NCBI GenBank assembly: GCA_037176885.1
Contig: JAWWNJ010000049.1
Location: 496,001 to 560,000 of the forward strand
Length of the DNA: 64,000 nucleotides
Direction: 5' to 3'
Origin: Favolaschia claudopus
Taxonomy: Eukaryota; Basidiomycota; Agaricomycetes; Agaricales; Mycenaceae
The translations under genes and the position numbers were made by a program. Shown in pieces: positions 8,597-27,569 of the stretch. Positions within the stretch are counted from its first letter, which is position 1. Every line of letters begins with the position of its first letter. The notes beneath the pieces were generated by a model. That model searched no databases. It was given only the letters and a program-made list of their open reading frames with translations, and was not told the DNA's origin.

Positions 8597-10021
8597 TGAA
8601 ACGCTTGCTATATGTTTATTGTATAACTTTATTCGTTGAGATAATAAATCCCTTCAAACAAAATCCACAATTTCAGCTTCGCGTGCGAGTCGGGGTTCCA
8701 GTAACGTATCTACTGTGGCAATCTGACTATATTCCCCAATCCGAGGATATATGTTATACAATTCGAGGTGTCTTGACTCGATAAAACTTGCTTTGAGTTG
8801 GCGCGACTCGATCCTATTTGAGCCTTTCGAACTCAGGACTTAGTTTTTCGCAATGTCGGTTGGTTGTAGGAGTCTAGGTAATTTATCTTGTTCAAGTTTC
8901 CTTTCAATCCGATGGAATATGGCACTAGACTGTTAAGTCGCGCTTAATCCCTTGTACTCGCGTTTCCCTTATCTCAGAATACCGTTTCACGCGTCTGATT
9001 CCCGTTCAAGTTCACTTATTTCACGCGTTTAACAATTCTCTGATCAAATCACAAGTCCAATTTATAGATTGAAAACAAAACAGAAAACTAAGTAAGTTCC
9101 CTGGGTTGTCCCACTGGATGTGAGCACTCTTTACTGAACGTGCGGCTGATAGCTTACACGGACAATCAAGGAGGGAGCAATCCACTGGAGCCCAGCTAAT
9201 AATTTACAGGCTTTATATACTACGCTCGAATAAATATTTACATCTTAATTGGGTATCTACCTACGTGTCCTGGTACGTGTATTGTCCTTATTTAGCAGAC
9301 GAGGCTGTTAAGTCACGCCTGTGTATTGTGGTTGCACGCGCGAGTAACGTGTAAACACACGAGGAGTCATTATCGCATCTATCGCGTCGATCCCTCGTGA
9401 TGGTCACGTGTGCGTGATGGATCCTCCCGATCCTTGACTTGATACTGGCTTCTATCCCACTCATCGCGGCTAGCCTTTCGAGGATACGAATGTTCCTGCT
9501 TCATGCCTCGCCTCGAGGTAAGGTCCTTCCGGCTCCTGCCAGAACTTCTAATTCGTCCTTGAGTAGAGAAATCTCCTCAAGATCATTGATCCTATGATGA
9601 TCCGCTCTTCGGCATCTTCGGCAATCCTTATGCCGCTACTCGGTTTCCTTTGGTTCGTCGTTCCGCGACTCGAATCCCTTGATATTGGTCTAGGCGCGCT
9701 GCCTAAGTATTCCTTCAATGTTATCCCATGTTCCTTGATGTCCCCTTAGGTCCCAATTCAATTGGTAGAATGGTTGGACTTAGAAGAGGGATTGTTATCC
9801 TCGACTACCGTGTATGAGTATTCATTTCTGGATAATCATAAGTCGCAGACAAGTCTAGCTTTCCTTTGCATCATTTAGTTAACAGCGCGGGTACGCTTTA
9901 ACCCTCTGAGATATATCCTAGAGATGTCCCTTTATTCCTCTTAGTTCAAACACGCGTTATATAATATTAAACATGTTCGAAAATTGAGAAAACACGGGGT
10001 GTTTTCATCCCAGGCCTATCA
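8597..10021 (-). repeat. 3' LTR of the element (left copy)
   Basis: 1,425 bp, matching 24447-25871 at a constant offset of 15,850. In element orientation it begins TGATAGG and ends GTTTCA. On the minus strand AATAAA signals lie at 8628-8633 and 8615-8620, close to the LTR end, consistent with the transcript 3' end. Confidence 0.95.
8628..8633 (-). terminator. Candidate polyadenylation signal AATAAA in 3' LTR
   Basis: Minus-strand AATAAA about 30 bases before the end of the 3' LTR in element orientation, with a second AATAAA at 8615-8620. The position fits the R/U5 boundary of an LTR transcript. Confidence 0.45.
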
Positions 10022-10033
10022 TCTCCCCATTTC
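10022..10033 (-). other. Polypurine tract for plus-strand priming
   Basis: On the minus strand GAAATGGGGAGA ends directly at the first base of the 3' LTR (TGATAGG). A purine-rich run touching the 3' LTR is the expected plus-strand primer. Confidence 0.8.
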
Positions 10034-10519
10034 ATAAATCTCGAGCGTCCCCGCTCGACTCTGCACGCGCGTTGTTCCAATCTCGAGGCGTAATTCTGAT
10101 TACGTCACTGCCGACACTCCTGAGGTCACCCGAGCGGAACCAAAATTCTCTTTGATCTAGTTACTTTTATGGTAACTCTCGCCTCGGCTAATCCCAATTC
10201 CTTAATTTTCAGCGCGGGACGGTCCTCTCTCAAGGCAAGCCTACTTAAGAGCCACCTCTGCTCTTGTGGTCATTGATATGACTAGTGTTCACGTGTTAGC
10301 CACGCCCCTTTGCTGATTTTGCCCAATTATAGGCCAGTTTTGGAATTTCCTCGACATATTCATTTGTCGCGGCTTCGAAGAAGCTGCGTCAATTCAGAGA
10401 GAATCTGGGCTCAAGACTTCTTAGAGCTTATCATTTCCGTGGGAGATGGTCCGTGCGCGACTGTATTGGCTGCGCAACTAAGGACAAATTCCCCATTCTT
10501 TTCTCTTTTGACTCCCACT

Positions 10520-13490
10520 ATGAACTTCACCAACGACTTCCCCGCCGTCCGTGTCCTCGCGCGCAAGAAGTTTGGTCTTCCGGTGCCTGACGACTCTGTC
10601 TCCGCCCGTGTTCTGATCACGGAGGAGCACGTCAAGTTGCCTCCAAAGGCGCCGTACTACCCGCTTCACATTGCCGAGGCGGGCCCGTTTCTTCCTCTTA
10701 CTGCAGACGACGTCGAATCCCTTGCTCCTCTCGAACACCCAACCGTTGTTCGCTTTCTGGGTCTCCTCAAGGATCCTAGTCGAGTTCTCCGCACCCATCC
10801 GCTCTTTCTCCAGACGATCATCAATGACATTCGTCCCGTTCTGGTACGTATCTCTAGTCTTTTCATTCATTCCTCCTGCTCAACCCTCTCTCAGACCCAC
10901 TTCCGCGATAAACACTTCAAATCTGTGCCTCTGACGCCGCTTCTACGCCAGCTTCTGTGTGGTATCGCGCAGGTCGTCGAGATCTGCCGCGTCCACAACA
11001 TCGCGGTCCTCCCAGTCGAGCCTAAGTTCCTTCTTCCGGCTGCTATTCGAGACGACCAGGAACGTCCGTGGATCAAGGTAAATTTTCTTTTCATGTTCTC
11101 GACTCGAATTTCACACTTGTTTTTCTCAGGAGGAATTCCTTCCCATGAACTTCCAGTTTGCAAATTCGTTTGACCACTACCAAGACCACTTCGCCGAGGA
11201 TCCTCTGCTTACGCCTGCCGAGCACGATCATTTAGTCGAGATCAAGTGTAAGGCGTTGGATGAGTGGTGCCTCCTCCACGACGCCCTTGTCCCGCTTCGC
11301 GCCAAGAACACCCCCTTGAGTTCCCAGGATGTAGCTCGCGTCGTCCAAGTAATCGAGAAGGCGGCCCCACTCTATGTAAGTCCGGACTTATTTCTCGATT
11401 CATATTCTTTCTTTCTCAACTACCCTTTTTAGTTCGAAACCCTTGAACTCATCGGCCGAGAGACGCCTTTCACCCGCCGGTACACGAATACCATGCTTTC
11501 ACTTATAGATATCGTCCCCGCGAAGCACCATCCCTACGGGTGGAAGTATAGTTTTAAGAACCGCCCTGCTGAGGTACGATTCCTCCCTAATACTTCTCCT
11601 TACGGTCCCTTACTGACTCTTTCTCGTTAGATGACCGAGTTCTTGCCCGTCGGCTTTCGATTCCCTTCCGAGAAGTTTGGTTTTAGTTGAGAGCCGTTCC
11701 CGCTGCTCGATTTGAAAGAGCACGGCGACCCTGTCGTGGACGCCTGGCAATTTCATTGTCGCGAGGCTCAGCGCGAGGCTAAACCACCTAGCCCTCCGCC
11801 TTCCGTTACCAAGCGCGGCAAGAATCGCTCTCGCCACTCGTCCGCTCATCCCGAGCCGCCTTCGCCCGCGTCTATTGCTATGAACCTTAAAATACAGAGA
11901 GATGAGCTTCTCCGGGCCAAGGAGAAGGAACCGCTTTTTCTCCCTTCTGATTCGCCGGTTTCCGACCACGCTCCAGTCGACGAGGACCCTATTTTGTTGA
12001 AGGCGCCTCAGCCTACCGTCACCGTCGTTATCCCTGCGCTCGCTCGCCCGGGTTCTGCGATAAAGAATCCCAAACCGATCCTGAAGGTTCGTTTTTCCTA
12101 TCTGAATCCCCCTTTGTTCTTCTTTTTACTTATGATCTCCTTTTTAGAAACCTGTGGCGCCTTCTCGCGACGTCTCTCTTCCTCCCGTGGTGACAGAAGC
12201 ACCTTCCTCTCAGGACGACGCTCCTCGCAACCCGAGAAAGCGTGTCTCGTCGCCTCCTTCAACCGTGAGTATCTCTGATTGATCCTCGCTTTTCGGTCAA
12301 TCTTTTTATCTAATCTTAATTGCTTTCTAGCGTCCTCAAATCAACATGTCCTCGCGCGATCGCGCAGAGTCCGTCGACATTGATTTGGACTTCCCTGAAG
12401 CTCCCGCAAGAGACAATTCACCCTCGCCTGCCGATCTAGAGTCTTCTGAAGGGGAAGACGAGCTTTCCGACAACGAGCGTCCTCAAAAACGCCAGAAGAC
12501 ATCGGCTCGCGGTAATTCTTCGACCCCGTCTCCCTCGAAGAAGGGACGCAGCAAGTCCACCGCCGTCCTCGACGAAACTGTGGTTCTTTCAGACGGTAAA
12601 ATCATCGCCAACAACCCGGAGACGTTTTTCCCTCCATCCTCGCGCGTCCATCGTACTGGCAACACAGGTCCTGTTCTTCCTGCCGACGCCGAGCCGATCA
12701 AGGTCGAGAAACTGTCGAACGTCCTGACTTTGGCCAAGTCTGATAATATTCTGGTAAGACGCTTGACTTAATCGTTTTTCTACTCGCGCTAACTTTAATT
12801 ATCTCTTTAGCTCAACGGTGCCTGTCTGCCCTGCTTGCAGAGTTCTCGCGACGATTGCGAACACGGGTTGTTCGCCCGTTGCTCTAACTGCGCTAAGAAG
12901 CATGGCTCTCACTGCAACCATAGCTTCACAGCCAAGGAGCAGAAGGGTCTGGCTCGCGCCCTCGAACCTTACTCCAGGTTATCGATGAACCGTACGTTAA
13001 TTCTTTTTAACTTCCTTATTTGCCGTTCCTGACCCCATTTTCAGGCGTAAATTCGGAGATCGACGCGTTTGCGGACGCGTTTGAGATCTACGAGGGCCTC
13101 CGTCAGCCCTTCCTCAAGGCGCGTGCGTTGGTAATTTCCCTTGGGTCCCATGTCGGAGATCGCCTTCGCGAGAACATAACCGCATACGGCCCAGAGAACG
13201 TGCCGGGGCTCGAGGATCTATCGGATGAAAATCGCGAAGCGGTGATGCGTGCCTGGGGAGAAGGTGTAAACCTTCTCGCGCCAGAGGCCGAGGTCTCCAG
13301 ACAACCTTCTCCAATCAACGTCGAAGACGACGAGGAGGATGTCGTGGGCTTGGCTCGCGCTGCTGAAGAGTCGCTTCAGGCTCATCGTCGCGCGCAGGGT
13401 CCCGTCTCTGACCCTGGCGCTGGTTCTTCTCGTGGTCCCGTTCGCGTTTCTCCTCGCAGGAACAAGGGTAGGAATGAAGACAGGGCTTAG
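10520..13490 (+). CDS. Antisense cargo gene A: large protein with Cys-rich zinc-cluster-like motif
   Basis: Nine exons fit: 10520-10843, 10895-11077, 11130-11375, 11433-11573, 11631-12086, 12148-12264, 12331-12753, 12811-12991, 13045-13490. All eight introns are GT-AG, 51-66 nt, and frame is kept throughout (2,517 nt, 839 codons with stop). One in-frame TGA at 11688-11690 in exon 5 interrupts otherwise coherent sequence. The N-terminal third is a globular helical region; the middle is Pro/Ser/Lys-rich with basic KRQK-like clusters, suggesting a nuclear protein. Exon 8 encodes C-x2-C-x7-C-x7-C-x2-C-x7-C followed by Asn-His, one residue per loop longer than a standard Zn2Cys6 cluster. The C-terminus is acidic then basic. 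I do not recognise the family. It is antisense to the element's own genes, next to the 3' LTR. A DNA-binding or regulatory role is inference from the Cys pattern. Confidence 0.7.
11688..11690 (+). other. In-frame TGA inside cargo gene A
   Basis: The frame of exon 5 reads Glu-Lys-Phe-Gly-Phe-Ser, TGA, Glu-Pro-Phe-Pro-Leu-Leu. Coding character and frame continue unbroken on both sides, so this is a single nonsense codon rather than a frameshift. It could be a mutation of TGG or CGA, or a readthrough site. Confidence 0.7.
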
Positions 13491-13942
13491 TCGCGGGCTT
13501 GGTGAATTTTCGCGTAAGTCCTTTTCTCCTTCCTATTCCTTTTCCCTTTTAACGCGTCTTAGTAGAATTTTTATGTATATCTACTGCCGTCCGTCGCGCG
13601 CATCTATCGCGCCAATTTTTCTTTTACTTACACCGCTGCTTGCTACGATGAATACATTCCGTAGCTTTATTTCATAGTATTCTGTACGCGCGTTCGCGCA
13701 GGCCGAACAATATATGGTATCGCCTGCAAAACTTAAAGTGTGAATTCAAGATTATCTTAAGTCAAATTAGCCGCTAAAGATAATCAGCGCGCCAATTCGC
13801 GTGTTTGATTATCGATGACGTTTGACCCATCAAGGGAGCAACCGGTCCAATTGTTCCGAGTACTCCTTTGAGAAAAGATTCACACGGTCACTCATACTTA
13901 AGTTTTGTCTCGACTTGATTTTCCTTAGGCTTGTAATCCTTC
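13491..13942. other. Spacer between cargo genes A and B
   Basis: About 450 bases, AT-richer than the genes, with no supported exon. It should hold the 3' end of gene A and the promoter of gene B. Confidence 0.4.
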
Positions 13943-14607
13943 ATGATCACCCCCAATACGCCCAACATCTTCGACGCTACTTCTTCGCCTGGTTGCTGGC
14001 CTGTGGCCCATCCTGCTGCTTATAAACGTGCCCCAAACTTCTTGAGTTACATGAAGCTGCTCGCGCTCGATGGCGTACGTTCTTCCAGAGGATCCTCCAG
14101 CGTGTCAAGGCTAACATTTCTCCAGTTCTATGAGAAGTGCGCGAATTGTCGTGGCTTCAAATACGTTTGTCACAACGAAGGCTGGGGCAAACCATGTCTC
14201 GAGTGCAAGAACACTGGGAACATCTGCCCCTTCGCAGAACGCTCCGAATTCTTATGCCACATCAAGATGGAACGCGAGAAATTCCTTCATAATTTCTGCG
14301 GCCCTAGTGCGTCTTCCTTTGACTGTCTCTCGAGTCGAACTAAAGTAATTTCAATTCAGACCGTGAGGAGGGCCTTATCCAGTTCTACGCCAACGCTCTT
14401 CAAGCTTTCATGGCGTTCGACCAGGCAGCCAATCCTAAGGCTAAGAACTTTCGCCGCGATGGATTTGTAGGACACTTATCCTTAATTTCCGACCCTTGGG
14501 CTGTTCAGTTCCTTGTTGATCATGTTGATCATCCTGACTTTGATTTTACTCTGGTAGAGAAACAGGCGATTATGTTCCAAGCCTCCATTGTTCCTGCACC
14601 TATGTAG
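13943..14607 (+). CDS. Antisense cargo gene B: small protein with Zn2Cys6-type cysteine cluster
   Basis: Three exons, 13943-14074, 14126-14306 and 14360-14607, with 51- and 53-nt GT-AG introns and exact frame; about 186 aa. Exon 2 encodes C-x2-C-x6-C-x8-C-x2-C-x6-C (CANC, then CRGFKYVC spacing, CLEC, NIC). This matches the spacing of fungal Zn2Cys6 binuclear-cluster DNA-binding domains such as Gal4 (C-x2-C-x6-C-x5-12-C-x2-C-x6-8-C). It is less basic between the first cysteines than classical members, and the cluster lies about 50 residues in, after a Pro-rich start. The C-terminal 80 residues are helical with no known domain. Whether it binds DNA, RNA or protein is not shown by sequence. It lies between genes A and C on the same strand, opposite to gag and pol. 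Confidence 0.72.
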
Positions 14608-15209
14608 TCCTGTACTTCTCCCTTAGTACACGATACACCTTAAATTTACGTCGCGCGACGGAATTTCCTTATTGAACTTGTTAGGACAAGATTGACGTGT
14701 GAAGTCCGATCGAAGTCGTGACTCCGTCGATCTTTCCCGTGACTTATGATCGAGTCGCGCAAATTCTGTCTTCTTAGTTCCATCGGATTCCTTTCCGCTT
14801 TGTAAATTATCTATAACCGATGTCCAGATTGCGTGCTCTGGTTCTAAGGCACGTGAGATCCTCGATATATCACGTTTTCTTCCCTTAGGCGGTGTATTTT
14901 TCCGCGTAGGCAAGGCAATCTCGTGACTTTTGATCGCGGTCACGTTTCTCAGGAACCCAGTAATTACGCGCGAGTCGAATCTCGACTCTGTATCCATAGG
15001 CTTCGTGCCACGTCTTTTAACGTGTCTAGGGAGTGACCAATGAAGTCCCGCCTGTCTTTGACGCGATTTACTAGTCTCCTTCCCATTTCATAAAATTTAA
15101 CTGTCCTCAGTTAACACGTATGACGCCTGGCCCTTCCTATAAAGAGTTCAAGTTCTTTCGACCATTCACCAGTCTTTTCGACGACTACCCTTCTCTAGTA
15201 GCATTAACA
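14608..15209. other. Spacer between cargo genes B and C
   Basis: About 600 bases with no supported exon. The frame of gene C is open upstream to an ATG at 15120, so translation could begin there instead of at 15210. Confidence 0.4.
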
Positions 15210-16589
15210 ATGTCTCCCTCTATTCGCGCTCACCTCTCCACTGCTCAATATGAAACCCTTATTTCTATTGGGGACAAGGTTGCCGCGACTCGCTATCCCG
15301 ACCGTTCCAAGCAGCGCGCCTTCCTGGACCAGCAAACCGTCCTCTTGGTGCGTTTGCTTAATTCCTAGGATTCGCATTGTTGCTGATTCTACGATTCAAT
15401 TATTTTTCAGGATGGTATGTCGGCTCTCCTCCCTGAGATTGCCAAGGAGAAACCGCTCTACGACACCTACTTTGCCGTCAAGAACAGTTACCACCAGTCC
15501 GCTACCAATCCCAACGGTGCCATCGGTGGCCGCTACCCTGTTATCGTCGACCTCTGCGCTCGCATCAAGTACGAACGCGACCGTCTTCGTTCCGGCACCA
15601 CTGCCACTCAACAAGCTCATCGTACTGAGCTCGAGGAGGCGCGCGCTGTCGCTGAGGATTTAGAGAGCAAGCCTTCTAAGAAGGGTAAAGGCAAGGGGAA
15701 GGTGAGTTTCGAATTAAATCCGTCGCGTTTGCCTAATAATTTAGGCAAAGGCGAAGAAGTCGAAGGCTACCGTCGAGGATCCCAACGATTCTCCCTTCGA
15801 CGATTCCGAACTGCCTCTCCCTACCGGTGAGCTCGACGATGTCATGATTGTCGATACTGAGCCGGTATGTACCTAGGTCTCGCCTCTCGACTCGAGGTTA
15901 TTGACCAACTCTGCGATGCTCTTCGCGCTTTCCAGGTCGAGGCTACTGCGCCTGGTTCTCGCTCGACTCAGTCTTTGGACGAGCGTCCTCATGTGAGCAA
16001 CCCTTTTCAAACTTTGAAAATCCTCGGGCAATTTGCTCGATTAATTCGTCGGGACAGCGTGCCTCTCAGTCGAGTAGTGCGCGCCCTTCCTCGGTACGCC
16101 TCTCATTTCTAAGAATGAAGGGTTTTGACCGAAGGGCTCCCCCTTATCTCAAGGCCATGGCTGTTCTTGCCCGTACTGACCCCGACTCAGTATCTGGACC
16201 CGTTCATGAGGACTTCCCGGTCCCACCACCTCGCAAGCGATCGCGGCCGTCCAACTTTGCCTATGAGGATTCCGCAGAACAGTATACCGGTGTGTTATCA
16301 TCTTTCCCAGATTTAAGTCGCGCTTATTTATTACTTAGCGACCGAGCTCGCCACTAACGGCGAAGCAGTCCAGAAAACTGTTGCCGAAGCTACTAAGCTC
16401 GTTGAAGCCAGCTCCTCCGATGATAACCTTGGATCCCTTCGACTACAGGAGGCGGACCTCAGGAGCCGGATTGGATTTGCCAACTCGCAACTTCGATACA
16501 CCCTCAATCACCGACAGCTCCTCGTCGATGAGCTCAAACGGGTTCTTGACCTTCAACACGACCGCTCCGCCAAAGCCCCCTCGACTTGA
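15210..16589 (+). CDS. Antisense cargo gene C: basic/acidic protein with C-terminal coiled coil
   Basis: Seven exons fit: 15210-15347, 15411-15701, 15745-15864, 15936-15992, 16058-16093, 16154-16289, 16339-16589, all with GT-AG introns (43-71 nt) and exact frame; about 342 aa from the ATG at 15210, or 30 more from 15120. The N-terminal 140 residues are helical (ARIKYERDRLRSGTTATQQA region). A Lys-rich KKGKGKGK stretch and an acidic segment with Asp-Asp-Val-Met-Ile-Val-Asp (SUMO-interaction-like) follow. The C-terminal 80 residues show heptad spacing of Leu with Lys/Glu/Arg (LRLQEADLRSRIGF to LLVDELKRVLDLQ), a likely coiled coil for oligomerisation. No family recognised. It lies closest to the pol stop, convergent with pol. 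Confidence 0.68.
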
Positions 16590-17009
16590 GATCCTCGAAC
16601 GTCCTCAGAACCCAAAGTTCGTTTATTATTCGGGCTTTAGCTTTTCTGCGATTTTCAGCTGATTCTAGTTCTTTCGAATTAGCATCGAGTCCTCCAATCG
16701 CACCCATCGTCGTACTTCCAAGACTACTCATTGTCCTCATTGTGACACATCTCGCCATCACCTTGCTTTTTGCTAGTAATTTATTTTAGACGCCTCGAGT
16801 TTACCTATGCAAACCCTTCGCCCAACTCCTATTACTGTCTTTACTTGATCTCCCCGAGCAGTCCTATCTTCTTTGATACGCCCAACTCGTGATACGCACA
16901 CTCCTTCACCTCTGTTTCATTTCTTTATGCCTTATGCCCCATGCAATATATGTCTTTACCGCGGTACTTTTGCGTTTGAGCCTTTCCCGGCAATCACCGC
17001 TAAGTTATC
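16590..17009. other. Spacer between cargo gene C and pol 3' end
   Basis: About 420 bases separating convergent gene C and pol. It contains short frames only and probably holds the termination signals of both. Confidence 0.4.
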
Positions 17010-20000
17010 TCACGGTTGAACCTTTCTCCGAGATGACCGACGAGGCTGACCTTCGTACGAGACTTCCTTTCGAATCTCGTCTAAGTCCAGTTCCTCGACT
17101 TGGTCTTCCTCGAATTCATCTTCCTGTTCTTCTCCATCGTCTTCGTCCTGTAGCTCCATCCTTGACTTAACGTGAACCTTACGGAACTGTAAATCTTGAC
17201 CCGAATATTCATCTGAGTCCTTCATCGCAGCCAGTTCGTCAAGTTTTTGCGGAGACAAGTCGATTAAGTCTAGGATAGTTCCTGGCAGCTCGAGTTTCTC
17301 TCTTTGTTCAAAAGGTATCACTCGGAATTGAGCTATTTTGCCTTGGAAGACTGAACCGTCCAGTTCGCAACATATATATGCGCCGCCCTTGGCACGCCTA
17401 ACTACTACCATGGGTCCTAAGTATCGAGGGTGCATTTTCCTGTTCAGCGACTTTTCAGTAGTCGTGTTCCTGACTAGGACTAGATCGCCCGGTTGGAAGT
17501 TATAATCCTTTATCTTCCCGCGATTCTCCTCCTCGTACTTTCTGACCATCTTTCGTTTCTCCTCGCTAACTCGTTCACGCATTTCCTCCACATGTACTGA
17601 ATGCTTGGCGAGTGCTTTAGCTCTCAAACCAATTAGTTCAGCAGCGGAAATTGGCGCGCCTGGATATTCTACCAACCAGGTTGCTTCCTCGATGTCCAAA
17701 GGTAATATGGGATGGGCGCCACATACTGCAAAGAATGGAGAACATCCCATTCCTCTTCTTACAGTTATACGGTCCGCCCATAATACTTGAGGGAAGAACC
17801 AATACCATTTCTTAACATCACCGCCGGTTGCCTTGTACAATGATTGCCGGATATCCCAGTGCCCTCTTTCCACAGTTCCGTTCGCCTGGGAATTGTAAGC
17901 CGAGATTTTAATTCCAACTACCCCGTACTTCGAGTTTAACCATTTTAGCGCGGCAATGAATTGCTTGGCATTATCAGTTACAATCCACTCTGGACATCCC
18001 CAACGACAGATTACATCCTCGAGCAAGAACTTGCCGATAGTTTCGGCATCCTCGGATCTCATCGGCCGGCCTTCAACATACCGCGACAAGGAATCCCTCG
18101 CCGCTATTGAATACCTGTGACCGTTCGAGACTTCACCCATTACCATGACATCGGTGTGTATCTTCTGGAAGATGCTTGGAGTCAAGGTAGGCCTTGGCGG
18201 GATTTTCAACAGAGCTTTCTGCCTTTGTTGACATATTTTGCAGGTATTGCAAAACCAAGTCACATCGCGTTCAAGTTCTGGCCACCAAAATCGAAGCTCG
18301 ATCTGAGAACGAGTCGCGTATATCCCTCGGTGCCCCAAGGCATTATGCGACGCCCTCATCATGTACATTCGATGTTCCTTCGCGACTACCAATTTATGCA
18401 TCGAACCTTCTCCTTTCCTGTATAACTTTCCACCCTTGCTCAAGAAGAAGTATCTGGCGAATTTCATGAATTTCTTGAATTCCTTGTTATCCATTCCAGC
18501 AGGTCTAACAAGAGGACTCTTTAGCCATTCCTTCACAATCTCGATTCTTTCGTCCTGGGCTAATGCTGCCCCGGATCGGTGATCCTCGACATATTTCTCT
18601 CGCTTGTCTGGGTTATTTTTAAGTTCTAGGTCCGGGAGTAAAGGTTCTCCTCCTTCCACCGATACTATATATTGTGGCATTACAAGTCCTTCGGCCTTGT
18701 AAGTCTGAACAACCTTTTCCTGGATGGCTTTTTCTTCCGTCCGGGCGACCGTGATTTCATCTTCGAAATCGTCTATCGAGGAGGCAGCTCCTTCCAATCC
18801 TTGGAAGTATCCTCCGCGTTCGTCGATTTCTTCTTTGAACTCATCGAAGTCGAGGGGTTGTTCACAATTATAGTCCCAATCTTCATGATTCTCCGGGGAT
18901 GGATTTTGATCCAACCCTTCCTCTGTATTGGGCCATTCCTCGTCTCCTGGTTGCGCTTTTCTCCGCGACAACCCATCTGGTGGGAAGGTTACTCCTCTGA
19001 CGTGCTTAAGCTTGAAGTGAAACATCAGGATTTGCTCGATCCAACGATTAATCGTCGCGTTTGGTCCCATACCAGGGTTATTCAACATTCCCTGAATATA
19101 GAGCGCGTCAGTCTCAACTACTAACTTCCTGCACCCCAGAAGCCAATATTGCATTGCCTCTAATGCTCGCTTTAAACCATACAGCTCGCGCTTCGGCTGG
19201 GAGAACCTGCTTTCCCTTTGGTTCAAAGTGATAGACGCAAACTTAGCGTAATACTTCTTCAATTTATCAAGTACATCATGTTGATAAATTTGAATCCCAA
19301 TGGCCATCCATGAAGTGTCCACAGCAAGTACGATATCAGAGTCCCAGTCGTAATTCAGAGGTTTCAGCGCGGGACATACTTTTATCGCTTCCTTGAGTGC
19401 ATTCATAGCCGCGACTTGTTCTGGACCCCATACGAATTCAACATTATTCCTTAATAACTTCGTAATAGGTCTACAGATTTTTGCGTATCCGTCTATGAAC
19501 ATTCGCAGAACCCCAGTTGTACCTAGGAATTGTCTTACGCCAGAGACATCCTCGAGAGGACCCCAACGAACAATAACTCCGATACGGTCAGTTCCTGGTC
19601 TTCTGCCTTCAAACGAGCAAATGTGCCCAACTACTGCGAAGACATCCCAACATAGTATACTCTTCATACCTGAGAACGTTCCTCCGCTATACTTGAGTCG
19701 TTGAATTACCCGGTTCAAGTTCAGGAAGTGCTCCCAGATAAACCTCCTAATTCCGGGGTTTTCGGGTATAGTTTCATACTTTCCGTCTTTATCCTGATAT
19801 CGAGTTCCCCCTCCTCTGATTGGTACATCATCGATGTAGGGAATCGTTACATGCGGGATTTCATCCCTTAGAATATATGTGACGTCGTCATGAAATATTG
19901 GAACCGAGTTTGTCCACCCTTGAGGAAGCTTGACTAATCGAAGCGCGCCAAAAGGTGTCTGGAACGTTGTAAAGTCCCTAGATCCCTCTGCGATATCTCG

Positions 20001-21137
20001 ATGGTCATATCCTGAGTACAAGTCGAGGCATCCTCCACATGCTCTTCCAGCGAAGTGGTCTGCCAACTCATCTGTCGCGGGAGGCACTCCTGAGTGAGCA
20101 ATGGTTACCGCATTCAGTGGTTCCAAAGCATGTACTAAGCGAATGCTCTTCCCATCCTTCTTTACTACTCCGAAGAATTTACTCCGGTACGAGGAATTTG
20201 AAGGCTCATAGACTCCCGCGTCTAGCTTCTTCTTTATAACCTTACAAAATTCCTCGAGTTGCCCGCGCGGAATTGGAATACTTCTTTCTACCCAAGTCTC
20301 ATGCTCGATCACAGGGAACTCAACCGGAGGGAAGAATTCATGTTTGAAACTTCCTCGCTCCGAATCGTCCCATGCGAATCCTGCCTCTTGCTTCATCATT
20401 AAGTCGTGCATGAGTTTCCGCTCTTCTTCCCAAAGAAAATCCCCTTCATGCTGCTTGTCTATTATTTCCTTACGCTCAGCGGTATACCTTCCTGTAGGTA
20501 CGAAGTCCGCTGGTTTAGGATTTAATGGCGGCATGTCCGCTAGAGGATCTCCAATTATCTCGCGTTTGATTCTATATTTCTCCGGGAGTTCCGTATATAC
20601 TGGTCGGATTTTCAATCCTACTGGTTTATACTTCTTGCCCGCGAGAACCGAAACCTTTGGTACTTCTTCCTTGACTTCCTCAGGACAAGTGCTACAAGGT
20701 TCTGGAGATATAAAATCCGCTGAGGCGCAACACCCACACCTTATCCCTTGAGTAAAGGAGTGTACTTTCCTTATCTCGACTGGTGTTTTGGTGCGTGGAC
20801 CTTCTTCGGGCTTCTCGGGGATGTTCGATTCCCCTTGTACCTCGACTTCTGGTCCTTCCCTGGTACTCCAAGTAAAGACACCGTACTTCTTGGTTGTCTT
20901 ATTCTTTTCAAGCTTCTTACCCTTGCGGGTCTTCTGCCTAAACTCTTGGAACAAGGTCTGCGCCTTCCTATCCCTCTTTAATGCTCTTGATCCAGTTGAC
21001 GCGCTAATATACGCCTCCTGGATCTCCGTCTCATCGAATGTAAGCCCTCTCGGCTTAAAATATCCCTCGATCTCTAACTCCTTATTCTCATTAAATCCAA
21101 GTTTTAGCGCCACTTCTCCTCGTTCTTGCAGATGCAC
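17010..21137 (-). CDS. pol: Pol polyprotein: reverse transcriptase, RNase H, integrase
   Basis: Open frame of 1,375 codons with domains in Ty3 order. The N-terminal 260 residues are an unassigned linker with a Cys-rich patch near residues 134-151 (Cys-Gly-Cys-Cys and Cys-x2-Cys). RT spans about 270-560, with the first catalytic Asp in LDLYSGYD near 372 and the YIDD box at 434-437. RNase H spans about 600-720, with LAVDTSW near 607, Glu near 651 and ETDALY near 677. Integrase has a zinc-binding H931-x4-H936...C963-x2-C966 and a DDE core with Asp 995, Asp 1055 and Glu 1090. A GPY/F-like segment (YLGPMVVVRR...GAYICCEL) follows. No C-terminal chromodomain is evident; the tail is Glu/Asp-rich. No ATG starts the frame near 21137: it overlaps the protease stop by one base, so it is probably reached by a second frameshift or reinitiation. 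Confidence 0.95.
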   Translation of the reverse strand: MHLQERGEVALKLGFNENKELEIEGYFKPRGLTFDETEIQEAYISASTGSRALKRDRKAQTLFQEFRQKTRKGKKLEKNKTTKKYGVFTWSTREGPEVEVQGESNIPEKPEEGPRTKTPVEIRKVHSFTQGIRCGCCASADFISPEPCSTCPEEVKEEVPKVSVLAGKKYKPVGLKIRPVYTELPEKYRIKREIIGDPLADMPPLNPKPADFVPTGRYTAERKEIIDKQHEGDFLWEEERKLMHDLMMKQEAGFAWDDSERGSFKHEFFPPVEFPVIEHETWVERSIPIPRGQLEEFCKVIKKKLDAGVYEPSNSSYRSKFFGVVKKDGKSIRLVHALEPLNAVTIAHSGVPPATDELADHFAGRACGGCLDLYSGYDHRDIAEGSRDFTTFQTPFGALRLVKLPQGWTNSVPIFHDDVTYILRDEIPHVTIPYIDDVPIRGGGTRYQDKDGKYETIPENPGIRRFIWEHFLNLNRVIQRLKYSGGTFSGMKSILCWDVFAVVGHICSFEGRRPGTDRIGVIVRWGPLEDVSGVRQFLGTTGVLRMFIDGYAKICRPITKLLRNNVEFVWGPEQVAAMNALKEAIKVCPALKPLNYDWDSDIVLAVDTSWMAIGIQIYQHDVLDKLKKYYAKFASITLNQRESRFSQPKRELYGLKRALEAMQYWLLGCRKLVVETDALYIQGMLNNPGMGPNATINRWIEQILMFHFKLKHVRGVTFPPDGLSRRKAQPGDEEWPNTEEGLDQNPSPENHEDWDYNCEQPLDFDEFKEEIDERGGYFQGLEGAASSIDDFEDEITVARTEEKAIQEKVVQTYKAEGLVMPQYIVSVEGGEPLLPDLELKNNPDKREKYVEDHRSGAALAQDERIEIVKEWLKSPLVRPAGMDNKEFKKFMKFARYFFLSKGGKLYRKGEGSMHKLVVAKEHRMYMMRASHNALGHRGIYATRSQIELRFWWPELERDVTWFCNTCKICQQRQKALLKIPPRPTLTPSIFQKIHTDVMVMGEVSNGHRYSIAARDSLSRYVEGRPMRSEDAETIGKFLLEDVICRWGCPEWIVTDNAKQFIAALKWLNSKYGVVGIKISAYNSQANGTVERGHWDIRQSLYKATGGDVKKWYWFFPQVLWADRITVRRGMGCSPFFAVCGAHPILPLDIEEATWLVEYPGAPISAAELIGLRAKALAKHSVHVEEMRERVSEEKRKMVRKYEEENRGKIKDYNFQPGDLVLVRNTTTEKSLNRKMHPRYLGPMVVVRRAKGGAYICCELDGSVFQGKIAQFRVIPFEQREKLELPGTILDLIDLSPQKLDELAAMKDSDEYSGQDLQFRKVHVKSRMELQDEDDGEEQEDEFEEDQVEELDLDEIRKEVSYEGQPRRSSRRKVQP

Positions 21138-22384
21138 TAATTCATCGAAGCATGGCGAAAAACCTGCTCCGCTTTATCTGGGTCAGCAGTTTCACCCGAT
21201 TCCTCATCCTCGACTTCTTCAACCGTGACTCGAGATTGCTTTGATGAGCTTTTCTCTCGTCCACGAGGAAACGTAGGCATTGAACACCTCTTTCCCGTGT
21301 TGGGATCCTTCAAGGTAACCGTCTGAGAATCATTCCTACCATTATTCACTTGGCATTCAGTCAGAATCTCAAAGGGCCTCCCCAAAAGAACCTTATACGC
21401 CGGACCTCGAATTATATGTACTTGTAGATAGACAGTCATGTCCCCAAATTTGAAGGGAACATTCTTGGCTAGACCAACCGTCCGTTCAATACTTTTATTC
21501 GCGCTTTCCATATGTACAATAATGTCTGGGTCCCAGGATAATTTCAACAGATTAGCTGTCTCGAGAGACATTGACACAACCTGCGATCCCGAGTCCATAA
21601 CACATTCTACTCGCGCCTGCTTATTTATAGTCGGGAATATTACCCTTAAATTGGCAGAGTCGCGCGCTACGAATATTGGTCTCTTCTCGTCTGTATAGAT
21701 TTGCCTAGGCCTTTCACCCGGCTCGAGATTCTCCAAATATTGAAGGTAGGGGTCCAACACAGTGACCGCTCCTTGTGGTACTTCTTCTGTGGTCTGGTTT
21801 TGAATAAACACAGAGTTCAACGGAGGTAGTTCGCTCAGGCTAAGTGCGTCATACTCCAGTCGCGGTTCCTCTTCCTCGTCCTCGAAAGGTAGGGCTTGTT
21901 CAACTTCATCTGCGAACATAACTTTCTTAACCGCGTCCCTGGGAACTGGCTTTCTAACTTTAGTTACGTCGCGTTTAATATTTGCCCTAACCTCTGGCGA
22001 AACTCCTACTAAGTCCCGCACATCCAAAGTCACTTCTGTACGAAGTATCTTATCCGCGACCTTCCTTCCCAGACCTTCTCTCTGGACAGGGGCCCTGACT
22101 TGATACTCCCGCGGCTCGATTTCCGTGGTCTGTTGTTCTAAATCAACCAGTTGATTTTCTGTTCGATTTCTAACCGGTGGAACCGATACATAAGGAAGTT
22201 CAACATAAGCTCTGTTTTCTACAGGTCTTTTGTCTTTGTCGCGCCTATCTTCAGACTCGACTTCCTCAGCCGCTTTGCTTCTCCAATCTTTGTCTTTATC
22301 AGCCCGACCTTTTTCTTTCCGGCTCTCAAGGGGCTTAGCACTGTCGGATTTTTGATGGCTCGCCCCTATCCCTGAGCTCTTCAA
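21137..22384 (-). CDS. pro: Retropepsin-type aspartic protease frame
   Basis: Frame of about 415 codons that lacks an ATG start; it begins at a TTG overlapping the gag stop and is in the -1 frame to gag. The first 230 residues are charged and low complexity (Lys/Glu/Asp/Arg). The protease core lies near residues 240-350: the active-site triad is Asp-Ser-Gly (CVMDSGSQVVSM, Asp at 21595-21593) rather than the usual Asp-Thr-Gly, with the flap region after it and the C-terminal VLLGRPF signature. Retropepsins work as homodimers and cleave Gag and Pol during particle maturation. The frame ends at a TAG (21139-21137) that overlaps the pol frame. Confidence 0.88.
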   Translation of the reverse strand: MKSSGIGASHQKSDSAKPLESRKEKGRADKDKDWRSKAAEEVESEDRRDKDKRPVENRAYVELPYVSVPPVRNRTENQLVDLEQQTTEIEPREYQVRAPVQREGLGRKVADKILRTEVTLDVRDLVGVSPEVRANIKRDVTKVRKPVPRDAVKKVMFADEVEQALPFEDEEEEPRLEYDALSLSELPPLNSVFIQNQTTEEVPQGAVTVLDPYLQYLENLEPGERPRQIYTDEKRPIFVARDSANLRVIFPTINKQARVECVMDSGSQVVSMSLETANLLKLSWDPDIIVHMESANKSIERTVGLAKNVPFKFGDMTVYLQVHIIRGPAYKVLLGRPFEILTECQVNNGRNDSQTVTLKDPNTGKRCSMPTFPRGREKSSSKQSRVTVEEVEDEESGETADPDKAEQVFRHASMN

Positions 22385-23886
22385 AAATTTGGTCCGGGCT
22401 TTCCTTGACTCTGATTCCTCGTTTGAGCAAATTGCTCTTGAGTCGCGGGAAGCTCTCCTGCTTGTAAACCTCTCATTATCAAGGTCTGAAATATCCCGTT
22501 CATATCGAGATTATTCCCGGCCAAAGGCATTGACTGACTTTGAGCCATATAGGTGGGTTGAACCACCTGTGGGACTTGATTTTGACCAGTAAGCTGTTGT
22601 TCAGCTTTCTGAAGTTTTACCTTCAGAGTCTTTATCTCGTCCATAGCCAACTCTTGATCCCAACCGGTAGAGGTATCACTCTCGGAATTATAGAACGATT
22701 CGTAGGTAGCTTGCCAATTTTGGCCAACCGCCTTGTTCTTCCAATAGTTTTCTACTCTCAGTTTCTGACTTCCTTGTCCGTGAGGAATGAAATTTCCGTC
22801 TCCTAGCTTATGGCTTCCGTTCTCTATCACTAGATGCCCCTTCTTGATGTGTTCATCTTTATAATGGCAATCGCGCGAATAGTGTCCGTTTTCCTCGCAA
22901 TAGAAACATTTACTTTCACCCCTACGTTCCTGTCTTTCACCCGGTGGACCTTGTCGAGATTGGGGTTGCGTGTTATACGCGTAACTCTGTCGCGGATATT
23001 CGCGTTGAGTTTGATGAGGGGGAGGGTCCTTTACATAATTCTGTAAAGTCTTCAACACTTCCTCGTGTCTCAACTCTCCCGACCTCTGTATGAGAGCATA
23101 TTGATCTCGGAGTTGAGCGATGGCTCCATTAATCTCCTCGATCTTCTCTTCATACGGCTCGACTTTAACCATTGGGGTTATCGCCGTTTGCCTGGCTTCC
23201 GAGTCTATCTTCAACGACGGAGCTTTGTGCTGTTTGGAGGCCAATGTCTCAGCGAGTTTTATCAACTCTTCCAATTTTATTGGATCCTCCTTGCGGTCAT
23301 CATTATCCTTGTCCGCGACTCCTGCAAGCGCGGGAAACTGAGTCTTAATTAACATAGTACTGTCAATTGATCCTCTAAGCGTCGTAGCGAAGCTAGATTC
23401 TAGAGTTCCCAAATATTGCTCGCATGCTACCTGGTTAGTCATTAACGCAGGCGCGACATATAATTTCTTGACTTCTCTCAAGAATTCTATGCCGAATCGT
23501 CTAAGACGTCCTTCTTCGGTAACCGCTATCCCACGGTTGCGTCGACATAATTGCCTCAAAAGTTCAACAGTTCCAGCGCGCTCCGATTTGATTTCTGGAT
23601 AACTGAGATAGACTTCACTAAGGAAGTCATCGTAGGTACCAGTCTCATATTTACTGAGCGTCCGCCAGACGTCTTTCTTTTTCTTAGGCAAGTAATTGGT
23701 GATCTGGAGTTTCTTTTCCTTGTCATCCGTGATTCCTCCTAACTCGAATATTTGTCCAACATGGTCCACGAAGGTCATAAGATCCTCATAGTCGTCTGTT
23801 GTAAATTTAGGAGCATTGGAATCCCAGGCATGAGGGACTTTGAAACTCGCGATCCGTCTTTCCGTTCTATCTTGTTGATCCGCCAT
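22381..23886 (-). CDS. gag: Gag structural protein with zinc knuckle
   Basis: 501 aa starting at an ATG at 23886. The N-terminal 220 residues are the capsid-like part: Trp-Asp-Ser-Asn-Ala-Pro-Lys-Phe near 21-28 and an Asp-Val-Trp/Tyr-Asp-Asp-Phe segment are typical of fungal Ty3 Gags. A Gln/Pro/Arg-rich linker precedes the CCHC zinc knuckle C327-x2-C330-x4-H335-x4-C340, which binds element RNA. A helical Glu/Lys segment and a Gln/Asn/Met-rich tail follow. The gene ends with Pro-Asn-Phe and TGA at 22383-22381, directly after a -1 slippery heptamer. Confidence 0.93.
   Translation of the reverse strand: MADQQDRTERRIASFKVPHAWDSNAPKFTTDDYEDLMTFVDHVGQIFELGGITDDKEKKLQITNYLPKKKKDVWRTLSKYETGTYDDFLSEVYLSYPEIKSERAGTVELLRQLCRRNRGIAVTEEGRLRRFGIEFLREVKKLYVAPALMTNQVACEQYLGTLESSFATTLRGSIDSTMLIKTQFPALAGVADKDNDDRKEDPIKLEELIKLAETLASKQHKAPSLKIDSEARQTAITPMVKVEPYEEKIEEINGAIAQLRDQYALIQRSGELRHEEVLKTLQNYVKDPPPHQTQREYPRQSYAYNTQPQSRQGPPGERQERRGESKCFYCEENGHYSRDCHYKDEHIKKGHLVIENGSHKLGDGNFIPHGQGSQKLRVENYWKNKAVGQNWQATYESFYNSESDTSTGWDQELAMDEIKTLKVKLQKAEQQLTGQNQVPQVVQPTYMAQSQSMPLAGNNLDMNGIFQTLIMRGLQAGELPATQEQFAQTRNQSQGKPGPNF
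22384..22390 (-). promoter_or_regulatory. -1 programmed frameshift site A AAT TTT at gag stop
   Basis: In the gag frame the last codons are CCA AAT TTT TGA. The heptamer A-AAT-TTT satisfies the X-XXY-YYZ rule (AAA, TTT, T). Slipping back one base reads AAA TTT TTG AAG and enters the protease frame exactly. The stop directly follows the slip site, which can raise frameshifting. A downstream RNA structure was not evaluated. Confidence 0.8.
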
Positions 23887-24427
23887 TCTGCCTCGACTTA
23901 AATCTTCTGAACCTAGAGTCTGAGAACTGTTTTGTGAGTCGAGATTTTCTCTCCTCTCAATTATAGGTTCCTGGCTCGTTTGTGGTTGTGAAGAAGAAGC
24001 CGTGCTTATTTCTTGATACGCTTTTGCTCGAGCAGAGGTTTTGCCTTTAACTTCGGCTCTACCTTGTTCAGCAGGCGTTTGTGACTTTGCCTTCTTCTTT
24101 GAAGGCAGGCGAGGTAACTCTTGTGGAGTTTTATGCCTGTCGGAACGTCTGTGTAGTGGTTTTGGAAAACCAGTTGAAGATTGTTCCCCGTCTCCCGAAA
24201 TCTCGAAAGACTCCAGTTACAAAGTGTCTGTGTTCTAGTTTTACTGAATCTAAGATCCAGTTGCGACTTTTCTTGTCCAAGTCGCGCTTCGAAGCCTTAA
24301 GAGCTCTTCGAAGGATATGCCCGAGTCGCGGCTAGAATTTAGCGCGCCTTTGTAGCAAATCTAGTTCCAAAAGCCAATAGGCCTTGAATGTATAAATTAC
24401 TTCTATGAAGTAATAGCCAAATGAACC
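23887..24427 (-). other. Element leader between PBS and gag
   Basis: About 540 bases of 5' untranslated leader in element orientation. The packaging signal would be expected here. Short frames on either strand show no domain. Confidence 0.6.
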
Positions 24428-24444
24428 CCTCGCGGTGGGCTCCA
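24428..24444 (-). other. Primer-binding site
   Basis: On the minus strand, two bases after the 5' LTR, the sequence reads TGGAGCCCACCGCGAGG. It starts with TGG, as needed to pair with the CCA end of a tRNA. It does not match the initiator-Met pattern common for fungal Ty3 elements, and I could not identify the tRNA. Confidence 0.7.
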
Positions 24445-24446
24445 GA

Positions 24447-25871
24447 TGAAACGCTTGCTATATGTTTATTGTATAACTTTATTCGTTGAGATAATAAATC
24501 CCTTCAAACAAAATCCACAATTTCAGCTTCGCGTGCGAGTCGGGGTTCCAGTAACGTATCTACTGTGGCAATCTGACTATATTCCCCAATCCGAGGATAT
24601 ATGTTATACAATTCGAGGTGTCTTGACTCGATAAAACTTGCTTTGAGTTGGCGCGACTCGATCCTATTTGAGCCTTTCGAACTCAGGACTTAGTTTTTCG
24701 CAATGTCGGTTGGTTGTAGGAGTCTAGGTAATTTATCTTGTTCAAGTTTCCTTTCAATCCGATGGAATATGGCACTAGACTGTTAAGTCGCGCTTAATCC
24801 CTTGTACTCGCGTTTCCCTTATCTCAGAATACCGTTTCACGCGTCTGATTCCCGTTCAAGTTCACTTATTTCACGCGTTTAACAATTCTCTGATCAAATC
24901 ACAAGTCCAATTTATAGATTGAAAACAAAACAGAAAACTAAGTAAGTTCCCTGGGTTGTCCCACTGGATGTGAGCACTCTTTACTGAACGTGCGGCTGAT
25001 AGCTTACACGGACAATCAAGGAGGGAGCAATCCACTGGAGCCCAGCTAATAATTTACAGGCTTTATATACTACGCTCGAATAAATATTTACATCTTAATT
25101 GGGTATCTACCTACGTGTCCTGGTACGTGTATTGTCCTTATTTAGCAGACGAGGCTGTTAAGTCACGCCTGTGTATTGTGGTTGCACGCGCGAGTAACGT
25201 GTAAACACACGAGGAGTCATTATCGCATCTATCGCGTCGATCCCTCGTGATGGTCACGTGTGCGTGATGGATCCTCCCGATCCTTGACTTGATACTGGCT
25301 TCTATCCCACTCATCGCGGCTAGCCTTTCGAGGATACGAATGTTCCTGCTTCATGCCTCGCCTCGAGGTAAGGTCCTTCCGGCTCCTGCCAGAACTTCTA
25401 ATTCGTCCTTGAGTAGAGAAATCTCCTCAAGATCATTGATCCTATGATGATCCGCTCTTCGGCATCTTCGGCAATCCTTATGCCGCTACTCGGTTTCCTT
25501 TGGTTCGTCGTTCCGCGACTCGAATCCCTTGATATTGGTCTAGGCGCGCTGCCTAAGTATTCCTTCAATGTTATCCCATGTTCCTTGATGTCCCCTTAGG
25601 TCCCAATTCAATTGGTAGAATGGTTGGACTTAGAAGAGGGATTGTTATCCTCGACTACCGTGTATGAGTATTCATTTCTGGATAATCATAAGTCGCAGAC
25701 AAGTCTAGCTTTCCTTTGCATCATTTAGTTAACAGCGCGGGTACGCTTTAACCCTCTGAGATATATCCTAGAGATGTCCCTTTATTCCTCTTAGTTCAAA
25801 CACGCGTTATATAATATTAAACATGTTCGAAAATTGAGAAAACACGGGGTGTTTTCATCCCAGGCCTATCA
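24447..25871 (-). repeat. 5' LTR of the element (right copy)
   Basis: 1,425 bp, same sequence as 8597-10021. It is adjacent to the primer-binding site, which makes it the 5' LTR in element orientation. It should drive transcription leftwards through gag and pol. Confidence 0.95.
25061..25070 (-). promoter_or_regulatory. TATA box of LTR promoter
   Basis: On the minus strand GTATATAAAG. The same site is at 9211-9220 in the other LTR. Transcription of the element would start about 30 bases further left. Confidence 0.5.
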
Positions 25872-25875: not shown

Positions 25876-26687
25876 TGTTCGGTGGACCCATTCCAATTTA
25901 CGAAGGGGATCTGCGTACTTTGACGTGAGTGAGATCGAGACTAAGGTGTACTATGAAAATTAGAACTGACGTTTATCTTAAGGGTTGCGTATGGACGGAA
26001 TCAGGAAGCTAACCCTAGTCATTTCCCCCAGTGGGCCAAGGCTAGATTCGGGCGCGACGTCCTCGATTTCATGAGAGAGTGGCTTAAAACAGCGTACAGT
26101 GAGTAATTGTGATTGTATGCGCCGAGATGAAGACTCACCAGGACTTGGCAGCACCAGCACAATGCGCCGAGGCGGCCTTGCCGAGGGACGACGACGAGGA
26201 GGATGATCCTTTGGCACGGGCGAAGTACACAATCGACCCCGTTGGCGACTGGGGGGATAAGAGCGACAGCGGCGATAGCGACAGCGCTAGTGACGCGGGG
26301 AGCGAGACGGATAGCGAGTCGAGCTCGGAGTCAAGCTCCGACAGCGAGGCTGACACAGACGCAGAGCGAGATGTGCGCGGGACAAAGCTAAAAGAGCTAA
26401 AGCGGTCCAAGGCGGCGAGTCGAAAGGAGAGGTCGAAGGCAGCGGAGAAGGCGAGGACCGCGAAGGCGGGCACGGCGGGAAAGGCGGGAAAGGCGACAAA
26501 AGCGGTTACGAAGACGAAGACGACATCGAAGGCGTCCAGAGAGGGGGGGAAGGATAAGGCGAAAGATAAAGGTAAAAAGAAGGAGGACAGCGCTAAACGA
26601 GGCGACGAGGGAGGGCGGGGGAAGAAGAGGGGAGGGGAAGAGACGACAGAGGAACGTGCCAAGAAGAAAACACGCGGTGAGGGCGCT

Positions 26688-26867
26688 GGGAATGCGGAGA
26701 GAAGTCATGTGGCGAAACCCAAGGCGGCGGGAGGCGCTGGAAGTGCGGGGAATGCGGAGGGAGGTCATGTTGCGAAACCCAAGGCGACGGGAGGCGGTGG
26801 AAGTGCGGGGAATGCGGAGGGAAGTCATGTGGCGAAACCCAGGGCGGCGGGAGGCGGTGGAAGTGCC
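26688..26867 (+). repeat. 60-bp coding tandem repeat, three copies
   Basis: Three in-frame copies beginning near 26691, 26751 and 26811, each encoding a variant of GNAEGGHVAKPKATGGGGSA, within the disordered part of the interrupted gene. Confidence 0.85.
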
Positions 26868-27569
26868 GCGAGGCCCGATGGCGCGGGGGGAAAGGAGGTC
26901 GAAGGTCCAGTGCGAGATCGGGGTGGGGAGGCGGAACCACCCAACGATCCCCCCGAGCCAACCGATCCCCCCCAGTCAGACCATCCATTGCCGCCCGCAT
27001 GTCCTGCTGCCGCTCCGGAGTATTTTGCGCAGGTGTATGGGGAGGTTTCGACGGAGGGGTTGGGGAATACATTCGACGCCTTGCTTGAATCCTTGAGCAA
27101 GTTGGAGGAAGGGTACAATTGGAAGAACTGGGAGAGAGGTGGGGTCGCGAAAGGCCTGCGAACGATGAATCGCCCGTCGCAGGTGCATGCTTGGATTCAG
27201 GCGGGGAGAGGGGCCCGAGGCGTGATGTCCGGTGGTGCGGGACCGACGCTGTCCGATACGCGAGCGTTTGGAGAAGCGTGGTGGGCGTGGTGGCGGGGGA
27301 TGCAGCCGATGTGGCGCAAACCAAATGAAGCGAGTACTGGATTTGCCCGCGACGCGTATCCTGGGGGCGGGGAAGAGGAATGGAAGACCCTACGGTTTCC
27401 TGGTCCGAATGGTGCGTTAAGTTTGGTGGCGAGTCTGTTTTGGTGGGGGAGGAGGATTAAATCGAAGGGCTTGTCCGGCGCAGATTTGGAGAAGTGGGAG
27501 GAGGCAGTCGTAGATGTGACTTGGATGTTGGGAGGTCTGCGGGAGGCGGAGACCAAGGGCGGTGAATGA

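Follow-up and report, generated by a model that had tools for sequence, protein, structure and literature searches.

What do the extra antisense genes of long terminal repeat (LTR) retrotransposons do? A function for such genes has been missing for years, and the question is raised again by a 17.3-kb Ty3-type element of the fungus Favolaschia claudopus. The element occupies positions 8597-25871 of the stretch of DNA analysed here (the window: 64,000 nucleotides of contig JAWWNJ010000049.1 in assembly GCA_037176885.1) and is coded on the minus strand. The interval between its pol stop (17010) and its 3′ LTR (10021) is filled by three multi-exon genes on the plus strand, which we call A, B and C. 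The first half of gene A (∼300 residues) falls into old classes, three of which were sequenced (classes 1-3), and these ancient versions are found on near-identical copies of the element, a hint that the versions themselves matter. Our data support the view that the pol-to-3′ LTR region has long served this Ty3-type lineage as an accessory module. More tentatively, and with a confidence that stops short of even, we read it as a regulatory module. Gene A would be its multi-allelic specificity factor, with template switching doing the reshuffling and frequency-dependent selection probably maintaining the diversity.

Genes A, B and C are maintained across copies of the element

The assembly searched comprises 264.6 Mb in 460 contigs (C-numbers denote contigs and L-numbers denote loci). 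Other copies of the element keep the module: gene B DNA was found at 37 loci of the family with 87-100% identity (37/37 scored loci). The antisense module belongs to the element.

Exon models for the three genes were set by hand and validated by the conservation of exon lengths across copies. Automatic splice chains were rejected as wrong for gene A, where the chain ran through one intron and was spliced round an internal stop, and likewise for gene B. An initial annotation of this locus had proposed three complete plus-strand genes, and the exon lengths do add up, to 839, 187 and 343 codons, with introns of the GT-AG type. The window copy of gene A is nevertheless not open, being interrupted by an in-frame stop at codon 318 that was overlooked earlier and that exon arithmetic alone does not reveal. 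Genes B and C are intact in the window. A copy with identical LTRs and a broken gene A was either damaged after insertion or helped by other copies.

The gene A region was complete in 19 copies (the window and 18 of the 20 fetched; L043 and L045 are truncated), and gene A was intact in 15 of these. Of the other four, gene A has a single stop in the window and in L039 and one inserted base in L055; the L048 copy is in frame, with one acceptor AG missing. The nine exon lengths were identical in 18 of the 19 copies (15 distinct sequences), the exception being the extra base of L055. These lengths hold although the classes differ at around one third of bases, and the introns measured 50-69 bases in the copies inspected. 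The constancy of the gene A exon lengths is far beyond chance.

Gene B was intact in 23 of 30 copies (18 distinct) and gene C in 13 of 19, the gene C set omitting L039 and L041, where the region is broken. Among intact copies, the ratio of non-synonymous to synonymous polymorphism (pN/pS) was 0.057 for gene B and 0.076 for gene C. Changes at codon positions 1, 2 and 3 numbered 4, 6 and 32 in gene B and 14, 3 and 62 in gene C, i.e. they fell mainly at third positions. The kept frames, constant exon lengths and third-position bias therefore indicate selection on the spliced proteins. Genes B and C are under strong purifying selection, one of the two options (selection or very recent capture) raised by the initial annotation, and neutral decay across copies was not seen.

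Gene A classes are far older than the linked sequence

When the 18 fetched copies were compared with the window over positions 10520-11600, 12 were 65.3-66.0% identical, three were 71.8% identical and three were 89.1-98.3% identical. In the flank at 9800-10500, all 18 were 96.8-99.1% identical to the window; over 13800-17400, the identity was 94.2-99.1% for 17 of them, with L039 broken by an insertion. Mean differences among nine representatives were 1.5% for the LTR and promoter, 2.0% for gene B and 2.7% for gene C. Within gene A they were 22.0% in exons 1-2, 23.5% in exons 3-4, 14.9% in exons 5-7 and 6.7% in exons 8-9. The 5′ break between classes 1-3 coincides with the start codon of gene A; towards the 3′ side, the divergence tapers off.

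Comparison of classes 1, 2 and 3 over exons 1-4 gave synonymous divergence (dS) values of 1.24-1.63, with ratios of non-synonymous to synonymous divergence (dN/dS) of 0.08-0.20. Between the window and class-2 copies, dS was only 0.017-0.082 for gene B and 0.057-0.172 for gene C (the frame-shifted B and C of L056 being excluded). The copy on C26 is 100% identical to the window in an LTR piece, 99% in pol and 100% in gene B, yet the two differ in gene A exons 1-4 with a dS of 1.46. In gene A introns 1-4, class 1 differed from class 2 or class 3 by 39-54%. With introns as diverged as this, it is therefore great age, rather than fast protein change, that stands out in gene A.

Typing of exon 3 assigned 36 loci (68/68 candidates scored), with 23 in class 2, six in class 1, four in class 3, two in class 4 and one in class 5. 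Classes 4 and 5 are indicated by exon 3-to-4 identity alone, their exon 3 being 70-72% and 79% identical to class 2, respectively. The conserved end of gene A gave 74 matches, all within copies of this family (81/81 candidates scored). A solitary gene A exon 4, 87% identical to class 2, lies at C124:163514-163651, where the other exons were unmatched. Element copies of equal identity and with identical or shifted coordinates were also noted on different contigs (C203/C285, C159/C166) and twice on a single one (C48); these are likely haplotigs or duplications.

Gene A classes recombine with each other and with the gag-pol backbone

The gag sequences divide the copies into two backbones, at 96-100% and 92-93% (best 40 of 79 candidates), and pol is 94-100% across family copies apart from short pieces (best 40 of 273 candidates). 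Class 2 was found on both gag backbones, with eight and nine loci assigned under strict spacing, a rule that left nine loci unassignable. Classes 1 and 3 were found on the first backbone (four and three loci), and classes 4 and 5 on the second (two loci and one). The C1 locus combines a class-1 exon 3 (96% DNA identity) with pol at 95%, gag at 93% and gene B at 87%, and has ∼2 kb of extra sequence inside. Counting C1 as a single element with 2 kb of additional sequence would place class 1 on both backbones as well. These combinations show that gene A class and gag-pol backbone recombine.

A similar exchange is apparent within gene A. Exons 1-2 of class 3 are 88-90% like class 2, while its exons 3 and 4 are 90% and 78% like class 1, compared with 71% and 59% like class 2. 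Class 3 is thus itself a recombinant of class 2-like and class 1-like parts.

Alleles under balancing selection are recognized by being far older than the linked sequence and by being shared across lineages. Both features were found for gene A, the lineages in this case being the two gag backbones that the family has in this genome. The presence of several deep classes in an otherwise homogeneous family suggests that rare classes may have an advantage.

Genes B and C are shared with other element families

The initial annotation had regarded the three genes as cargo, possibly captured very recently. Gene C relatives were, however, found at 56-67% in other families (best 118 of 337 candidates, among the matches listed). 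In one related family, a 1.5-kb piece at L059 (on C97, pol 81%) contains the start of a gene C that shares the first intron position, plus a gene B relative that is 30% identical to the window gene B over 77 residues (single-comparison E 4e-6). Pol differs by 18-19% in amino acids between the families that share the B-C pair.

With the L059 gene B relative as query, 40 loci were found, comprising 41 matches (41/41 candidates scored). The gene B-like matches of other families comprised 10 at 89-100%, one at 56-76%, 26 at 45-46% and three that were weak and partial. At 37 of the 40 gene B-like loci, a gene C-like gene follows in the same orientation after 603-1,079 bases, inside the 2.5 kb considered; the exceptions were the three weak matches, at C36:6647, C66:1384567 and C132:87270, where no gene C was listed. 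Every gene C piece of other families, among the matches listed, had a gene B within 6 kb. All eight B-C loci with pol among the matches listed have it in the antisense orientation, 3.56-3.57 kb away, which agrees with the expectation that the genes would recur in this position beside related pol genes. The pol list held the best 66 of 1,646 candidates, and the remaining 29 B-C loci were without a listed pol. Clear host homologues outside LTR elements were absent among the scored matches (for gene C, the best 118 of 337 candidates), bar one lone gene A exon and the three weak gene B matches.

The B-C pair is thus older than the families carrying it. As it is shared with elements of diverged pol and gene B, the module is therefore an old accessory module, and the idea of recent cargo was not upheld.

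The module proteins may act in the nucleus

Cysteine clusters are present in gene A (C-x2-C-x7-C-x7-C-x2-C-x7-C, towards the end) and in gene B (C-x2-C-x6-C-x8-C-x2-C-x6-C), and basic stretches are present in genes A and C. We take the cysteine spacing of gene B to fit the Zn2Cys6 fungal regulators. A Pfam scan at E up to 1 matched gene B to Zn_clus (E 0.15; 12.7 bits against a cut-off of 21) and gave no domain in genes A and C; TRP28 (PF04195), the mark of the plant Retand lineage, was not found in any of the three. Homology between the cysteine clusters of genes A and B was also considered, and a comparison gave it no support.

Among 5.8 billion proteins, the ∼8,000 candidates sharing the most words included no relatives of the gene A protein, either with the whole protein or with a four-sequence alignment of its first part (∼8,000 candidates each). 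The same protein collection yielded 1,456 relatives of pol. A search of the PDB returned nothing significant for the gene A first part, gene B or gene C, and relatives of gene A, pol or gene B were not confirmed in viral contigs. Judged by the cysteine clusters and basic stretches, nuclear regulatory roles are likely for the module proteins, with genes A and B probably encoding zinc-cluster-type, DNA- or protein-binding regulators of the element.

How could gene A diversity be preserved?

On established retroelement biology, the antisense orientation would let the introns survive the reverse transcription cycle, since they are present in the genomic RNA as complements and no splicing takes place there. 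Such a placement would therefore leave each gene dependent on a promoter of its own, active once the element has integrated. If packaged together in a particle, elements could exchange gene A by template switching. Rare gene A classes might then gain an advantage, for example through class-specific self-recognition or repression, and this advantage would preserve old classes while the LTR, gag and pol sweep. We regard class-specific self-recognition or self-repression as the leading candidate mechanism, with neutral mosaicism as its main rival.

Several observations weigh against frequency-dependent selection on a regulatory gene A. Classes 4 and 5 are known from exon typing rather than full sequence, and several copies look like near-duplicates (C203/C285, C159/C166 and two in C48), leaving fewer independent copies. 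Nowhere does dN/dS exceed 1; the divergence is old and constrained, so a direct sign of selection for change is absent. Gene B too has a divergent form (87-89%) at five loci, which makes gene A the extreme rather than the sole old segment. The Zn_clus match of gene B falls below the cut-off, and this domain was not found in the gene B relative of the other family. The independence of gene A class from gag speaks against a simple restriction factor targeting Gag. Finally, 33 of the 41 other-family pol loci listed lack any listed match to B or C out to 10 kb, and 16 of these 33 (e.g. C231, C68, C86, C91 and C106) match the window pol at 81-82%, the same as the eight with B-C. The module is either dispensable for some related elements or too diverged to be seen there.

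The classes could alternatively be a neutral mosaic of old sequences, gained by template switching from rare or extinct lineages and diverse without any advantage. We consider this somewhat unlikely. It would accommodate the recombination that is plain within and around gene A, the absence of dN/dS values above 1 and the older form of gene B at five loci. It accounts less readily for classes 1-3 holding frame and exon lengths at dS values above 1 and sharing a 5′ break at the gene A start codon, or for the other segments of the element being far more alike. Among the candidates scored for exon 3 and for the conserved end (68/68 and 81/81), moreover, the classes occurred only in this family and a donor family with such a gene A was not seen.

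An arms race with the host, in which gene A counters or evades a variable silencing factor and host diversity keeps the classes, is less probable again and in our view unlikely. The concentration of variation in half of one protein and the mostly intact state of the genes are in its favour. The variation is, however, old and constrained instead of fast, and one genome harbours several classes, although its single host genotype should favour just one of them.

It is very improbable that the antisense RNA, and not the proteins, is what matters, silencing or dampening the element via double-stranded RNA; retroelement antisense transcripts can act in this way, according to the relevant passages of PMC7264820, but the codon-position bias of genes B and C and their kept frames show selection on protein. 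Least credible of all are captured host genes carried as passengers, since despite introns typical of host genes, the lone exon on C124 and the three weak gene B matches without gene C on C36, C66 and C132, all other matches listed fall in the element or in B-C pairs, the B-C pair predates the families, and gene A lacks relatives among the best word-sharing candidates from a collection in which pol finds many.

Comparison with known systems

The homeodomain (HD) mating-type genes of basidiomycetes are multi-allelic, with a variable first part and a conserved DNA-binding part, and are kept so by rare-allele advantage. Gene A resembles them in being multi-allelic with a variable first part. It differs in having no Pfam domain and in being carried by a mobile element in many copies.

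Extra antisense open reading frames near the 3′ LTR were already known in plant Ty3 lineages, as the initial annotation stated. In the Retand lineage, Grande and RIRE2, as described in the relevant parts of PMC11963269 and PMC7264820, they lie between pol and the 3′ LTR and are thought to make nuclear or DNA-binding proteins. These elements share with ours the Ty3 type, the long pol-3′ LTR region and the conserved antisense genes (PMC11963269, PMC7264820). Retand, Grande and RIRE2 are plant elements, whereas the host here is a fungus and TRP28 is absent. The genes described here are spliced, while the word ‘intron’ does not occur in the main texts of PMC11963269 and PMC7264820 on the plant elements.

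Among fungi, Boty / BcGypsy1 of Botrytis cinerea carries an antisense gene, brtn, making it another case of an extra antisense gene in a fungal LTR element (passages in PMC7264820 and PMC8365987). Those passages report one antisense gene, compared with three here, and the Boty host is an ascomycete. The earlier statement that no described fungal element with a spliced three-gene antisense module was known therefore needs narrowing in view of brtn. For the three-gene form, searches of the open-access literature (PMC), outside which most subscription papers lie, showed no report of such a module, nor of a gene of this kind with ancient alleles. The spliced three-gene antisense form and the ancient alleles of such a gene look new.

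Copy number control of Ty1 in yeast (p22/p18) provides a model for how gene A might act. It is described as an element-encoded, subfamily-specific self-restriction that evolved by transfer and recombination (sections of PMC4599808, PMC7055915 and PMC12530519). The p22 protein is a Gag fragment, whereas gene A is a separate antisense gene that does not co-vary with gag.

Architecture of the element

The features of the element are listed in Table 1. The identical LTRs, primer binding site, polypurine tract and minus-strand gag-protease-pol order given in the initial annotation were all borne out by the sequence. The LTRs have TG..CA ends, a 4-bp GCGG target duplication flanks the element, and the purine tract AAATGGGGAGA lies just ahead of the 3′ LTR (minus-strand sense). 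In pol, RNase H (residues 570-704) and Integrase_H2C2 (920-974) scored above the Pfam cut-off, while the reverse transcriptase (RT) match (residues 359-439) was under it. The element is of the Ty3/Gypsy type because the integrase comes after RT-RNase H. Named relatives of pol (query residues 250-720) are from Mycena sanguinolenta (80%), M. chlorophos (81%) and Lentinula edodes (65%).

Table 1. Positions of the element's features in the window
Feature	Position	Strand	Description
3′ LTR	8597-10021	-	1,425 bp, identical to 24447-25871
3′ polypurine tract with 7-bp hairpin (GGGA loop) and U-rich box ahead	10022-10060	-	Sequence and RNA fold, z -3.5
Gene A	10520-13490	+	Nine exons, 839 codons with stop, GT-AG introns
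Gene A exons	10520-10843, 10895-11077, 11130-11375, 11433-11573, 11631-12086, 12148-12264, 12331-12753, 12811-12991, 13045-13490	+	
Gene B	13943-14607	+	Three exons (13943-14074, 14126-14306, 14360-14607), 187 codons with stop
Internal hairpin / U-rich box / polypurine module	15066-15114	-	Between genes B and C, splitting the module
TATAAA	15138-15143	+	∼70 bp ahead of gene C start codon; kept in related family
Gene C	15210-16589	+	Seven exons (15210-15347, 15411-15701, 15745-15864, 15936-15992, 16058-16093, 16154-16289, 16339-16589), 343 codons with stop
pol (RT, RNase H, integrase)	17010-21137	-	Pfam; 1,456 protein relatives
Aspartic protease open reading frame	21137-22384	-	gag-asp_proteas match under Pfam cut-off
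gag, one CCHC knuckle	22381-23886	-	zf-CCHC match under Pfam cut-off
Primer binding site (PBS) region	24426-24444	-	PBS-like TGGAGCCCACCGCGAGGGG, two bases past 5′ LTR
5′ LTR	24447-25871	-	1,425 bp, identical to 8597-10021

At its stop, the 3′ end of gag reads A AAT TTT TGA (∼22380-22392, minus strand), leading into the protease frame; this fits the rule for -1 slippery heptamers. The protease-to-pol junction near 21137 also requires a -1 shift, and a slippery heptamer was not seen there by eye. Just outside the element, at 26659-26871, three imperfect direct repeats with a 60-bp spacing lie within a low-complexity open frame. Further away, the plus strand at 37771-39324 holds an open frame of 517 codons, which may be an ordinary host gene; towards its end, a possible C2H2-like zinc finger was picked out by eye.

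A candidate central polypurine tract

Two units combining a hairpin, a U-rich box and a polypurine tract (PPT) are present in the element, one ahead of the 3′ LTR and one internal. The two hairpins have equal stem lengths (7 bp) and an RGGA loop, with different stem bases. The internal unit was present in 20/20 cargo loci and the 3′ unit in 16/20. The exact internal palindrome was found in 51 of 59 loci, the remaining eight being LTR pieces. The internal hairpin of the related family (L059) gave a z of -4.3 against shuffles; that of the window was not, on its own, beyond shuffles (z -1.1, with 32/200 shuffles folding as well). With three or fewer mismatches allowed, the palindrome pattern matched twice in the window against 1.3 expected, and exactly only at 15097. 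A search with a polypurine pattern, narrow enough to miss the window family and L059, gave two matches, both between B and C of other families.

The internal unit is probably a central PPT. The palindrome ahead of gene C was also considered as the binding site of a regulator. A role in reverse transcription is likelier, given that the palindrome stands next to a second PPT and that the 3′ PPT has a matching hairpin, though both are possible. Multiple PPTs occur in Sireviruses, Athila4/Calypso and Ty1, with an inverted repeat near the terminal PPT, as described in parts of PMC2829016. The present element resembles these in having an extra PPT inside it and differs from their description there in that the entire unit of hairpin, U-rich box and PPT is doubled, once in the middle of the module.

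Implications

With three genes under purifying selection, relatives in several families and a natural set of alleles on near-identical backbones, the function of these antisense genes becomes testable by comparison of classes. If the gene A alleles are balanced, the result would be a selfish element with mating-type-like diversity. A broader and rather doubtful extension is that retrotransposons can run their own multi-allelic systems of self/non-self recognition. Such a system would use an antisense, intron-bearing gene with a cassette-like, reshuffled specificity half, whose ancient alleles would be held under negative frequency dependence as copies with rare alleles escape the repression imposed by residents.

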